DNA of 64,000 nt from Desulfovibrio sp. GTDB lineage: Bacteria; Desulfobacterota; Desulfovibrionia; Desulfovibrionales; Desulfovibrionaceae. The stretch covers positions 124,001 through 188,000 of the forward strand of contig JAITSV010000076.1 in assembly GCA_031287575.1 (NCBI GenBank), written 5' to 3'. The notes beneath the pieces were generated by a model that made no database searches, was not told the origin of the DNA, and saw nothing but the letters and a program-made list of their open reading frames with translations. Position numbers and translations under genes: made by a program. Positions 633-62,427 of this stretch are shown here, one piece after another (within the stretch, counting starts at the first letter, position 1; the number at the start of each line of letters is the position of its first letter).

Positions 633-3600
633 CTACCCTTGCTTCCCGGACGGGGCTTTACGGACGTTGACCATGAACACCTTGGTCTCCGGAATGCCCG
701 TGTTCGGGTCGCCCACAGAAGGCGACAGCAGGTTGGCCGAATCGAACGTGGCGTTCTTCTTCTGGCCCCAGCCGAACTGCCAGGGAATGCCCACCTGGTG
801 CACGGTTTCGCCCATGACGGTGAACGGCTTCAGGCGCGGGGTGACGATGGCCACCACCTGCACCTTGCCGCGCACCGATTCCAGCACCACCTGGTCGCCG
901 TTCCGCACGCCCAGTTGCGCCGCCAACTCGCGGCTCATCTCGCAGAAGCCGTCGGGCTGCATTTCCTTCAGCCACGCGGTCTTGCGGGTCATGGTGCCGG
1001 ACTGCCACTGCTCGGTCACCCGGTAGGTGGTGCACACGTAGGGGAAGCGCGGGTCGCGCACGGCCTTTTCCTCGTGGGCGAAGTGCAGGGCCGTGGGGTT
1101 TACCCGTTGCGGCGACAGGGGGTTGCCCGCCAGCGGGCTTTCGAAGGGTTCGTAGTGTTCCGGCAGGGGGCCGTCCACGCGGCCAGGACCATACAACTGC
1201 CCGCGCCCTTCGCGCACCATGATGAACGGCAGCTTTTCGCCGGGCTTCCACCCGCCGTCGGGCACGTCGCCCACCCACTTTTCGCCGTTCCAGGCGATGA
1301 CCGCGCGCTTGGGGTCGAAGGGCTTGCCCGCCTGGTCCACCCCGGCGCGGTTGTACAGGATGCGCCGGTTGGCGGGCCAGGCATACGACCAGTTGGGGAA
1401 CAGGCCGATGGCCGCCTGCTCCGGGGTCTGGGTGCGGTCGTGCCGGGCCATCATGTTGCCCTGCTCGGTGTAACTGCCGGAGAATATCCAGCAGCCGCAC
1501 GCGGTGGAACCGTCGGCCTGCAACGCGGCGAATCCGGGCACCTGCTGGCCTGCCTTCCACTGCTTGTCGGCGATGGTCACGTCCTTCAGGAAGGTGCCGT
1601 TGAGGCGCCTTGCCAACGCGCTGGCGTCGTACGCGCCGTCCTTCAGGTAGGCGGTGTCCAGGTTCAGGATGGGTTCCGGATGCTTGCCGCCCTCCGCCTT
1701 GTACAGCTTGCGCACTTCCTCGAACAGCCGGATGACGATGTCGCCGTCGCTCATGGAATCGCCCATGAACCTGGCGCTCTTTTCGCGCCATTGCAGCCAG
1801 CGGCCGGAGTTGGCCACCGAGCCGTCCTTTTCCACGCTCATGCACGCGGGCAGGAAGAACACCTCGGTCTTGACGTCCTTGGGGTTCACGCCGGGGCCTT
1901 TCCAGAACAGCGAGGTCTCGTTCTCGAACAGGTTGACCACCACCGTCCAGTCCAGCGTGGCCATGGCCTTGCGGTTCTTGCCCGCGTTGGCCCCGCCCGC
2001 GCAGGGGTTCTGCCCCCACACGAACGCGCCCTTGAAGCCGCCGTTGTACATGCGCTCGAACAGCGACAGCCAGGAGTATTCCACCACCTTGGTGTCGTCG
2101 ATCTTGGGCAGCCAGGTGTACGCTTCCTTGTGGTCCGCCGTGGGGTACATGGCCTTCAGCAGGGAGGCCGCGTACTTGTCCAGGTTGGACCACCAGTTGG
2201 CGCTTTGCGGATCGTTGGTGACCGGAGTGCCCGCCTTCACGTAGGCGTCGTAGTCGGCCCAGGTGGCCCGGGGAATGGGCAGGTAGCCGGGCAGGTTGTC
2301 GCACAACAGGGCGATGTCCGTGGTGCCCTGCACGTTGGATTCGCCCCGCAGCGCGTTCACCCCGCCGCCCGCGATGCCGATGTTGCCCAGCAGCATCTGG
2401 ATCATGGACAGGGCGCGGATGTTCTGCACGCCCACGGTGTGCTGGCACTGGCCCATGGCGTACAGGATGGTGCCCGCCTTGTCGGGCCTGCCCGTGGACG
2501 CGAAGGAGTTCCACACCGCCAGCACCTTGTCTTCCGGCATGCCGGTGACATTCACCACGGTCTTCAGGTCATAGCGGGCGTAGTGGCGGCGCATCACCTG
2601 CAGGACACAGCGCGGATCCTTCAGGGAGGGGTCCTTCAGGGTCACGCCCTTGTCGTCGGTGACGAAGTTCCACTTCTTGCGGTCGTAGCTGGCCGTTTGC
2701 GGGTTGAAGCCGGAGAACAGGCCGTCCTTGAAGTCGTAGTCCGGCCCCACGAGGTACGAGGCGTTGGTGTAGTCCACCACGTACTGCTTGAAATACAGCT
2801 CGTTATCCAGGATGTGCCGGATCAGCCCGCCAAAGAACACGATGTCCGTGCCCGAACGGATGGGCGCGTACAGGTCGGCCTTGGCCGAGGTGCGCGTGAA
2901 GCGCGGGTCCACGTGGATCAGCGTGGCGCCGCGCTGCTGGGCGCGGGTGACCCACTTGAACGAGATGGGGTGGTTTTCCGCCGCGTTGCTGCCCATGATC
3001 AGCAACACGTCGCTGTTCTTGAGGTCGATCCAGTGATTCGTCATCGCGCCGCGTCCGTAGGACTCTGCCAGAGCCCCCACAGTGGAACTGTGTCAGATGC
3101 GGGCGTGGCTCTCCAGGTACACCAGGCCGAGGGAGCGGTGCATGGCCTGCAACAGCCAGCCCTCCTCGTTGTCGATGGCGGCGGAGCCGACGGAGGCCAT
3201 GGCGCGGGTACGGTTGACCGGCTGGCCCTTGTCGTTGACGGCCTCGAACGAGGCGTCGCGGGTGTCCTTGATCTTGCGGGCGATGCGCGGCAGCGCCCAG
3301 TCCCACGACTTTTCCTCCCACTTGTCGCCGCGGGGGGCGCGGTACAGCACCTTGGTGATGCGCTGGCTCTGCTCCGTGGTCTGCCAGATGGACGAACCCT
3401 TGGGGCACAGGGTGCCTTCGTTGGTGGGGTGGTCCGGGTTGCCCTCGATGTTGATGGTGCGTCCGGTCGCGGGGTCGGTCCAGACCAGCAGGCCGCAGCC
3501 CACGGCACAGTAGCAGCATACGGAGGTGGTCAGGGTGGCCTTGTCGATGGCCAACCCTTCGGCATGGACCGCGACCGGGGCAAGGCTGATGCCCAGCCCC

Positions 3601-46539: not shown

Positions 46540-48492
46540 CTACCGCCCCCGCAACTGCCGTTTGTCCCCCACGCGAATGGTCACGCGCTCCTTGTCGAAG
46601 TATTCCAGCAGCGGAATCACGTACTTGCGCGAAAGGCCGCCCGAAAGCTCCTTGAATCCCGCCGGATCCAGGTCGTCGTGGGTGTCGAACCACGCGGTCA
46701 CGCGGGCCTTCAGGTCCGCCATCACCGGGCCGGGAAAGTACAGCCCGTCCTTGACCTTCACCAGTTCCCCGGCGTCCTGCAGCAACTTGAACACCGCCGC
46801 CGCCTCCTTGAATTCCAGCCCCAGCGGCTCCAGCACGTCCTTGGCGTTGGGCGGGCTGCTGCCCCCTTCCGCGTAGGCGGCGCGAATCCTGGCGCGCAGG
46901 CCCTCCTGGTCCGATGCCAGCGACACCTTGTGCCCCGGCAGGCGCAGCACGTCGCCCTCGGCCACCAGTTCGCCCGCCTTCAGCAGCCGTTCCACGATGA
47001 AATGCACCAGCTTGGGATGCAGCCCCCGGCCCCACCCGGCGGACAGCGCGCCACGCGCCATGCCCGGCTTCAGCGGTTCGCGGGCGTGGTATTCCGCCGC
47101 GCGGGCCAGGCACCCCGCCCCCAGGCGGCGCACCGTCTCCGCGTCCACGCAGGCGCGTTCGTCCCGGTCGAAACAGAACACCTGCCCCTTGGCGCCCAAG
47201 GCTTGCAGGGCCTTGTCCAACCGCTTGGATTCCAGGTTGGTCAGCACCGAAAGCTGGGCAAACCGCGCCCCAGCGGAACCGGCCAGCCGCAGCAGGGACT
47301 GGGTGGCCGCCTCCTGCGTGGCGGCGTCGCCCACCTCGTGAACGTCGGGCAGGCCCTCCAGCAGGGCCAGCTTGTCGGAAAATTCCGCGTCCTTGCGGCG
47401 CAGGTCCAGCCCCAGCGGATGCAGCACCGCGCCCCCGGCCACCGTACGCAGCGGCGAGAACGAACGCACCACGCAGCGGTCCCCCGCCACGCCCACCATG
47501 GGCTCGGTAAAGCGCACCTCGCACAGGGCGGTTTCGCCGGGGGCCAGCTTGTCCCGGTCGGGGAAGTACAACCGCGCCAGCACCTCGCGCGCGCCGTGGT
47601 GAAAGTGCACCTCGGTGCGGTTCTTCAGCGGCGTGGGCGCGGACGACAGGCAGGTCAGCCGGACCACCCAGCGCAGGGAGGGAAACAACGTGCCGGGGTG
47701 GGCCAGCACGTCGCCGCGCTGCACGTCCTCCACGTCCAGCCCCTGCACGTTGACGGCGGTGCGCCGCCCGGCAGGGGCCACGTCCACCGGGCCGCCATGG
47801 CTTTGCAGGCTGCGCACCTTCGTTTGCGCGCCGCCGGGGTACAGCAGCACCTCGTCGCCCACCTTCACGCTGCCGGACACCATGGTGCCGGTGACCACCG
47901 TGCCGTGCCCCTTCATGGTGAACACGCGGTCCACGGGCAGGCGGAACAGGTCGCTGCGGCGCACCGGGCGCAGTTCGCGCTCCAGCATCGCCAGGTGTTC
48001 GCGCAGTGCGTCCAGCCCCTGCCCGGTGGTTGACGACACCGGAAAGATGGGCGCGCCCTCAAGGAACGTCCCGGCCAGGAACCCGGCCACGTCCTCCTGC
48101 GCAAGGTCCAGCCATTCCGGGTCCACCATGTCCACCTTGGTCAGGGCCACCAACCCGTGGCGGATGCCCAGCAGCGAGCAGATTTCCAGGTGTTCGCGGG
48201 TCTGGGGCATCACCCCTTCGTCCGCCGCGATGACCAGCATGACGAAGTCGATGCCCGATGCCCCGGCCACCATGTTCTTGACGAAGCGCTCGTGCCCCGG
48301 CACGTCCACGATGCCCAGACGACCGACTCCGGCCCCGGCGCCCGGCAGGTCGCAGAACGCGAAGCCGAGCTCGATGGTGATGCCCCGGCGCTTTTCCTCT
48401 TCCAGCCGGTCGCAGTCGATGCCGGTCAGCGCGCGGACCAGCGAGGTCTTGCCGTGGTCGATATGTCCTGCGGTGCCCATGACGACAGGCAT
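46540..48492 (-). CDS. selB: Selenocysteine-specific elongation factor SelB
   Basis: 650 residues from the ATG at 48492 (GCAGGAG upstream). EF-Tu-like GTPase: [45 protein letters not shown]. Domains II and III follow ([19 protein letters not shown]), then four C-terminal winged helices that read the SECIS hairpin. Brings Sec-tRNA to in-frame UGA codons. Its substrates in this window are fdhA and possibly the small gene at 61193. No selA, selC or selD is seen nearby. The longer frame to 48714 is not supported. Confidence 0.97.
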
Positions 48493-59829: not shown

Positions 59830-61155
<1,326 letters not shown>

Positions 61156-61192
61156 CGGGGTCCGCGCACCGGCCCCAAAGGACTGGAACGCC

Positions 61193-61426
61193 ATGCTCGC
61201 CAGCCAACGACGCAAACGCCTGCCTCCCGCCCCCGACGACGCCACGTTGCGCGCGGCCCTGCGCCGCACGGCGGAAAGGGAACAGGCCGACGACAGCCGG
61301 GGCACGGCGGACGACTCGCGCACCGGCCCCGCCTGCGCGTTGATGCCGGGCATTCCGCGCGGCACCCTGCTGTGCGAACTGCCCCCGCGCGACGTGCCGG
61401 TGGTGCTGTGCTGGGACGACTGCTGA
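61193..61426 (+). CDS. Small protein of unknown function ending at an in-frame UGA
   Basis: 77 residues to the UGA at 61424-61426, AAGGA 10 nt before the ATG. MLASQRRKRLPPAPDDATLRAALRRTAEREQ, a polar middle, then GIPRGTLLCELPPRDVPVVLCWDDC just before the UGA. The same frame stays open for another 61 codons to a TAG at 61612, with coding-like third positions and a plausible sequence. So this is one of three things: a true 77-residue protein, a 139-residue selenoprotein with Sec after CWDDC, or a gene broken by a TGG-to-TGA change. The family was not recognised. It sits 37 nt after the UDP-sugar dehydrogenase. Confidence 0.6.
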   Translation: MLASQRRKRLPPAPDDATLRAALRRTAEREQADDSRGTADDSRTGPACALMPGIPRGTLLCELPPRDVPVVLCWDDC

Positions 61427-61612
61427 CGGGGCTTGCAGGAAGCGAGTTCGCTTCTGCGGTCCATGCCTGCGGGCGGACAACTGCTGCTGGACATAGCGCC
61501 CAACCAGATGGGCAGCGCGCGGCACATCGCCCGCGTCCGGCAGGCCGATGTGGTGGGCATGCCCTGCGCCACCGCCGAAGGACATTTGCGGTTGCTGCTG
61601 AGAAAACGTTAG
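61424..61612 (+). other. Open-frame continuation past the UGA, with SECIS-like hairpin
   Basis: After the UGA the frame reads RGLQEASSLLRSMPAGGQLL..., continuing to DVVGMPCATAEGHLRLLLRKR and TAG. The RNA just downstream folds as GCA-g-GAAGCG-AGUU-CGCUUC-UGC (about 61433-61455). The loop begins 18 nt after the UGA and has G as its second base, which fits the bacterial SECIS rules as I recall them (G in the first two loop positions, 16-37 nt from UGA). Most third positions are G or C, in line with translated sequence of this genome. Confidence 0.45.
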
Positions 61613-61707
61613 GGCCCCAAGATATTTTTTTACCGTAAGCACTGCCCGTCGGAAACCGGAACAACGACACACCGGCGCTCCGCGCCGTTCATGGACAGCC
61701 TTCACGC

Positions 61708-62427
61708 ATGAGCCTCGTCATCGCCACCGCCACCACCCGTGAAATGAAAGCCGTGCTCACCGGCTTCAACGGGCGGGGCCGCGTGGGCTGCGCCCTGCCC
61801 GGACCGGGCGAGGTCTGCCCTTCGCCCGTCAACGGGCGCAACTGTCTGCTGCTGGTCACCGGCGTGGGGCCGATCAACGCGGCCCTGTCGCTGGGCCGGG
61901 TACTGGGCGCGCACCGCAGCGTGCGCGGCGTGCTCAACCTGGGCGTCGCGGGCACCTTCGACGTGCTGCGCGCCCCGCTGGGCAGCGCCGTGCTGGCATC
62001 CGCCGAAGTCTGGCCCGAATACGGCCTGGCGGGCGACGACGGCGTGGACCCGCAAGGCATCGCCTTTCCCCAGGCAGAAGGCCCGGACGGTCCGGTGTGG
62101 GACCGCATCGACCTTGCGCCCGGGGTATTGTTCGAACAATGGCACCTTGCCATGCCCACGGCAGCCCGCAGCGGCGTTGCGCTGACCGTGGCCGGGGTTT
62201 CCGGCACCCCGGCGCGGGCACGGGCCATGTGCCGCCGTCACGCCCCGCTGATGGAGAACATGGAGGGCTTTTCGCTGGCCCTGGCCTGCCTGCGCCACGG
62301 CCTGCCCTTTGCCGAGGCGCGCACCATGTCCAACATCGTGGGGTCGCGCGCGGCGGAGGACTGGGCGCTGGAGGGGGCTCTGGACGCCCTGGGCGCGCTG
62401 GCCCGCGAACTTTTCCTGACCGACTGA
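61708..62427 (+). CDS. mqnB: Futalosine hydrolase
   Basis: 239 residues. Nucleosidase fold: VIATATTREMKAVL, LLLVTGVGPINAALSLGRVL, GVLNLGVAGTFD and the active-site region MENMEGFSLALACLRHGLPFAEARTMSNIVGSR. Members of this family remove hypoxanthine from futalosine in the alternative menaquinone pathway. The presence of menG upstream and a polyprenyl synthase immediately downstream supports that reading over a general purine nucleosidase. Confidence 0.92.
   Translation: MSLVIATATTREMKAVLTGFNGRGRVGCALPGPGEVCPSPVNGRNCLLLVTGVGPINAALSLGRVLGAHRSVRGVLNLGVAGTFDVLRAPLGSAVLASAEVWPEYGLAGDDGVDPQGIAFPQAEGPDGPVWDRIDLAPGVLFEQWHLAMPTAARSGVALTVAGVSGTPARARAMCRRHAPLMENMEGFSLALACLRHGLPFAEARTMSNIVGSRAAEDWALEGALDALGALARELFLTD

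Follow-up and report, generated by a model that had tools for sequence, protein, structure and literature searches.

A probable selenocysteine-only protein family with a TusA-type fold in Desulfobacterota

TusA and SirA are sulfur carriers (PF01206; E. coli structures 1dcj and 3lvj) with a beta-alpha-beta-alpha-beta-beta fold of about 72 residues. Their catalytic Cys stands at the N-terminus of helix 1, and a CPxP motif is the hallmark of TusA. A related domain is found in YeeD (also TsuB) of the thiosulfate importer YeeE-YeeD (8k1r), which is Cys-based with a CPxP motif, unlike the family described below. YedF (TIGR03527) is a SirA-like selenium-metabolism protein whose TusA-type domain, with a Cys CPxP motif and no Sec, is followed by a C-terminal DsrE domain, and it has been linked to SelD (PMC5322559). 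Earlier work sought a selenium-linked subfamily of SirA-like proteins, but found none (PMC5322559, PMC2432076).

A 2026 review lists 119 catalogued families of prokaryotic selenoproteins (PMC13188914); these include no TusA/SirA-type member and no motif matching that of our family. Several of them, namely SaoL, SaoC, HgcA, KCU-star and MbdU (PMC13188914, Table 1), share a vicinal Cys-Sec motif with the new family, but their NCBIfam models match none of the 50 members that we scanned. The deep-Sep families DG, DW and DF (PMC12013277) resemble it in being small hypothetical selenoproteins of Desulfobacterota. However, Cys homologues exist for them, their motifs differ (GUxG, GxU, none given), and their models (NF049953, NF041197 and NF049942) did not match the new family.

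The gene studied here lies in a 64,000-nucleotide stretch of Desulfovibrio sp. DNA (contig JAITSV010000076.1), the whole of which we call the window (Table 1). We estimate a probability of about 0.9 that this locus represents a genuine, Sec-only selenoprotein family with a TusA fold. That its product is a selenoprotein is, by computational standards, close to certain. Conservation shows a UGA that is most probably decoded as Sec by SelB and tRNA-Sec, directed by a SECIS hairpin. The new proteins can be aligned with TusA/SirA along the pattern D-x-R-G-x-x-[C/U] and are predicted to share its fold and the position of the catalytic residue. By contrast, Sec takes the place of the catalytic Cys and is preceded by an additional Cys, U-x-[GA] stands where TusA has CPxP, and most of the new proteins fall below Pfam detection.

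Table 1. Features of the window that bear on the selenoprotein gene (window coordinates)
Feature	Position	Strand	Remarks
Selenoprotein gene	61193..61612	+	139 residues, Sec (U) at position 78; stop TAG 61610-61612
N-terminal extension, genus-specific	61193..61327	+	omega about 0.46, variable length, weak constraint
TusA-fold domain (predicted), conserved, 72 residues including Sec	61394..61609	+	AlphaFold model, structure matches, TusA profile match
UGA, probably read as selenocysteine	61424..61426	+	Cys precedes (DCU motif); aligned to the TusA catalytic Cys
Predicted bacterial SECIS hairpin	61435..61457	+	GCA 61435-61437, g, GAAGCG 61439-61444, loop AGUU 61445-61448, CGCUUC 61449-61454, UGC 61455-61457; conserved core stem 61439-61444 / 61449-61454
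Upstream neighbour: nucleotide-sugar (UDP-sugar) dehydrogenase	59830..61155	+	NCBIfam TIGR03026; synteny in other Desulfovibrionaceae
Downstream neighbour: futalosine hydrolase (menaquinone pathway)	61708..62427	+	NCBIfam TIGR03664; synteny
SelB, Sec-specific elongation factor	46549..48486	-	TIGR00475 match over cut-off; G000:C47:170549-172486 in the window genome
Formate dehydrogenase alpha subunit, in-frame UGA	near 3095	-	context ARI-U-HSSTVGAL...MTNHW

The reading frame that opens with the ATG at 61193, preceded by AAAGGA as a plausible ribosome-binding site, meets the UGA and then continues for 61 sense codons, as the first-pass annotation of the window had proposed. The ATG at 61343 is an alternative start. 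The same annotation had raised the possibility that the downstream frame is fortuitous, which does not agree with the selection acting on it. A comparison of seven Nitratidesulfovibrio genomes shows purifying selection on the frame 3′ of the UGA (omega 0.11); its variable sites are distributed 9/2/23 over the three codon positions, and omega exceeds 1 in the shifted frames. The 32 codons 5′ of the UGA are constrained even more strongly (omega 0.06). The first part of the reading frame has an omega of 0.46 and differs in length between these genomes, and we therefore regard the extra N-terminus as a feature of the genus.

We searched for homologues with profiles over the family, the order and the phylum of the window genome; counts of genera and families follow the labels of the search tool. 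When the read-through product was used as a query, homologues were found in 11 genera, each with a single TGA at the same codon, except for a fragment at a contig edge. Orthologues occur in seven further Nitratidesulfovibrio genomes, one of them truncated at a contig edge 5′ of the UGA. A first profile detected the gene in 53 of 288 Desulfovibrionaceae genomes, not counting a chance match of 19 residues with TAA, and in one more genome of the order. A wider profile detected it in 32 of 395 genomes sampled across the phylum, a count that leaves out G506, whose matching protein is instead a canonical TusA. A match in G613 was likewise rejected as chance. In total, homologues occur in 86 genomes, which span 37 genera and 15 families. 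At the site in question each of them has UGA, and Cys, Trp or other sense codons occur there in none. The first-pass annotation had suggested looking at homologues for Cys or UGA, as opposed to Trp, and the outcome supports its proposal of a new selenoprotein. Moreover, the family looks to be Sec-only as far as these sequences go, since Cys forms were not found in the searches of family, order and phylum. The usual argument from pairs of Sec and Cys homologues is therefore unavailable.

The core of the motif is D-C-U, in which C and U are invariant and D is present in at least 90% of members. Strong conservation extends to a Gly or Ala at position +2 and to a Leu in the first helix. The motif had originally been read as CWDDC-Sec; its C-U part holds throughout the family, but the first Cys is not general outside Desulfovibrionales, where the sequence is mostly DYRxDCU or DSRxDCU. 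The family members examined are single-domain proteins, mostly of 75-140 amino acids. In four members from one family (L189, L190, L196 and L197), we noticed by eye a lipobox or signal sequence directly 5′ of an IDSRKDCU-type domain. Such exported forms would imply a periplasmic selenocysteine.

The hairpin in the window is exactly as first described, with its loop 18 nt from the UGA and G at the second loop position. Its start is 12 nt 3′ of the UGA. It satisfies the published constraints on bacterial SECIS elements, which are a loop of 3-9 nt, a stem of 4-16 bp, G in the first two loop positions, a spacing of 16-37 nt and a minimum free energy (MFE) of at most -7.5 (PMC13188914). Its MFE is -19.3 over 47 nt. 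Taken alone, this folding energy stands out only slightly (z -1.74; 12 of 200 shuffles were equally good). The hairpin is convincing because it is conserved, not because of its energy.

A model with one fixed stem register gave just 79% pairing and scored equally well when slid by +2, which led us to two registers, one with a loop of 4 nt (AGUU, as in the window) and one with a loop of 6 nt (mostly AGUUCN). Counting both registers, a full 6-bp stem is present in 61 of 67 distinct members, and 37 of these 61 stems are entirely Watson-Crick. By comparison, random synonymous codons with the protein held fixed gave at most 10 full stems in 2000 trials, and permuting codons within alignment columns among sequences with the same residue gave at most 42. 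Pairing is retained through many different stems, such as GAAGCG/CGCTTC, GAGACG/CGTCTC, GAGGTG/CACCTC, GACGTA/TACGTC and GGCGTA/TACGCT, and 56 of the 67 members have AGT as the codon over the loop. Each of the 13 members found after the model had been fixed has six of six pairs in the 4-nt register. Hairpins are weak in three members. The MFE over 45 nt from the UGA is at most -7.5 in all 67. Rfam has no match in 61000-61800.

The machinery for Sec incorporation accompanies the gene. Of 38 carriers tested, 37 have SelA over the cut-off, among them every genome of 90% completeness or more; the exception is a 67% complete genome. A tRNA-Sec scores far above the cut-off in most carriers tested. 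The window genome has both, and, as had been noted at first sight, SelB and a Sec-containing formate dehydrogenase are encoded in the window itself, the latter being its second selenoprotein. Within the Desulfovibrionaceae sample, 49 of 53 carriers have SelB over the cut-off, as do 183 of 235 non-carriers (Fisher p 0.013), but this co-occurrence is only weakly informative because most of this bacterial family uses Sec. The four carriers without SelB over the cut-off are fragmented drafts, and three of them have SelA.

Other explanations of the UGA can be weighed against these data. The main alternative considered in the first-pass annotation was a Trp codon turned into a stop by mutation, to which a sequencing error can be added, given that TGG differs from TGA by one base and that Trp is present elsewhere in the motif. 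The uniform presence of UGA, with TGG in none of the 86 genomes, refutes this explanation and leaves it a negligible chance. The UGA might also be a true stop, with the downstream frame belonging to another gene or conserved by accident. Elsewhere in these genomes UGA does terminate translation, as at the end of 35 family genes, but none of these 35 terminal UGAs is followed by the hairpin, which thus occurs after the internal UGA only. In addition, the frame across the internal UGA is always in phase, often just 10-16 codons separate it from the likely start, and the predicted domain spans it, with strand 1 ahead of it. We consider a true stop very unlikely. Similarly small is the chance that the UGA is recoded as a residue other than Sec, for example as Trp or through a general suppressor. 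Read-through by itself does not name the residue, but the SECIS is of the published bacterial form, SelA is found in every adequately complete carrier tested, UGA serves as a stop within the same genes, and both the preceding Cys and the alignment to the TusA Cys fit Sec.

The two AlphaFold models, one for the window protein (pLDDT 93.7) and one for a distant member (90.9), share the beta-alpha-beta-alpha-beta-beta arrangement. For both models, the top seven matches among solved structures are all of the TusA/SirA/YeeD type, with Z of 8.6-10.9 over 69-71 residues, and they mostly stand at least 1 Z unit above the unrelated structures beneath them. YeeD is the closest, with Z of 10.9 and 10.8. 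The top Foldseek match is E. coli TusA (YhhP), at an E-value of only 0.01. Aligned profile to profile with TusA proteins of the same genomes, the family gave E-values of 5.6e-6 (probability 85.5) and 1.4e-5 (80.2), and in this alignment the Sec falls on the catalytic Cys of TusA. The relationship is visible in distant members, whose I-D-Y-R-G-D-C-U compares with L-D-x-R-G-L-x-C in TusA. The Pfam TusA model gives weak matches in six of 50 members, with E-values up to 1 and 1.9e-6 at best, and does not match the window member. Conversely, the family profile matches the canonical TusA of G506 at 2.9e-4.

This comparative evidence, read on a predicted fold, shows the Sec at what would be the N-terminus of helix 1, the place of the persulfide-forming Cys of TusA. 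A thioredoxin-like fold was not found in the models of two distant members or by structure comparison, and a profile search of PDB sequences returned a chance zinc-finger match alone. The first-pass annotation had seen a thiol/selenol redox-type motif; beyond this, the predicted fold is of TusA/SirA type rather than thioredoxin type and places the Sec at the persulfide site. Because CPxP is absent from the members examined, with D-C-U-x-[GA] in its place, we file the family as a TusA-fold relative and not as TusA. TIGR03527 (YedF) matches none of the 50 members, and a DsrE-like fusion is absent in those examined.

In most Desulfovibrionaceae examined, the gene is part of a menaquinone gene cluster, where it is flanked by the genes for the nucleotide-sugar dehydrogenase and for futalosine hydrolase, and this placement recurs in another family of the order. 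In five genomes of another genus (L145, L147, L156, L162 and L163), a TauE/SafE-like permease gene, named by eye and without an NCBIfam match, is directly 3′ of the selenoprotein gene. The pairing recalls YeeE-YeeD, although the permease is of another family. In two other bacterial families, a LysR gene ends 25-44 nt ahead of the UGA in seven genomes and 182 nt ahead of it in an eighth. The one LysR tested is over the cut-off of NF040786 (LysR_Sec_metab, selenium metabolism-associated LysR); the remaining upstream LysR genes were recognised by cluster or motif alone. One genome (G630) encodes SelD and YedF 2.3-3.3 kb downstream of the gene (L135 / L198, G630:C2). At this locus, there is also a LysR gene just upstream, and a gene for a MoeA-like molybdopterin-binding protein lies between the new gene and SelD/YedF. 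Given that the context varies by lineage (menaquinone genes, TauE-like permease, polyamine genes, molybdopterin enzyme), it does not pin down the function.

Two functional readings, which are not fully exclusive, deserve consideration. One is that the protein is a redox enzyme, in which the vicinal Cys and Sec would switch between the selenol/thiol and selenenylsulfide states and so reduce a disulfide, a peroxide or a metalloid, the TusA fold being no more than a scaffold. Most selenoproteins are redox proteins and several catalogued families have vicinal C-U motifs (PMC13188914). The loss of CPxP and the export of some members also favour this reading, whereas the absence of a thioredoxin-like fold speaks against it and the neighbouring selenium-metabolism regulator, SelD and YedF point to trafficking instead. 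We give an enzymatic role slightly less than an even chance. The other reading is that the protein carries chalcogens in the manner of TusA, an assignment by analogy that we hold tentatively and at rather less than even odds. A carrier's selenolate would take sulfane sulfur or selenium from a donor. The vicinal Cys could then resolve the loaded Sec, forming a Cys-Sec selenenylsulfide, and HS- or HSe- would be released or passed to an acceptor. Formation of the same bond might alternatively serve substrate reduction rather than a relay of S0 or Se0.

The selenium-type LysR and the SelD/YedF context point to trafficking or homeostasis of selenium or sulfur tied to the selenium status of the cell. 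A more specific proposal is that this Sec-obligate TusA-type protein is a dedicated carrier of perselenide or persulfide that feeds SelD or buffers selenium in sulfide-rich cells, under control of the selenium-type LysR. We regard this proposal as unlikely. If true, the dedicated carrier would be at once a chaperone for selenium and a selenoprotein. The 2026 review (PMC13188914) poses as an open question what donor supplies SelD with selenium in vivo, and the new family is a concrete candidate for that role.

The family, which occurs in many bacteria of the sulfate-reducing type, is apparently uncatalogued. NCBIfam 20.0 and Pfam contain no model for it; the NCBIfam scans of 50 members, which included models for the families of Haft and Tolstoy 2025, gave no relevant match, and single-member queries against both databases gave chance matches alone. 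Our full-text literature searches, with subscription papers outside their scope, found no prior report of a TusA selenoprotein or of Sec on a TusA scaffold. Most published searches for selenoproteins rely on Cys homologues (PMC13188914, PMC12013277), and would therefore miss a Sec-only family. A selenoprotein family present in at least 15 bacterial families has been overlooked by both annotation and discovery pipelines.

We noticed some further TusA-type proteins. The canonical CPxP TusA of G506 (L195, G506:C65, about 2700-2915) is encoded just 3′ of an apparent membrane transporter gene. Weak TusA-type matches below the Pfam cut-off occur in tandem, about 0.6-0.8 kb apart, in two genera (G016:C23:144305-145257 and G030:C22:8014-8794). 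Finally, a TusA-like protein in G651 (L117, 1501-1707) has Arg replacing the catalytic Cys (NARPICLL).
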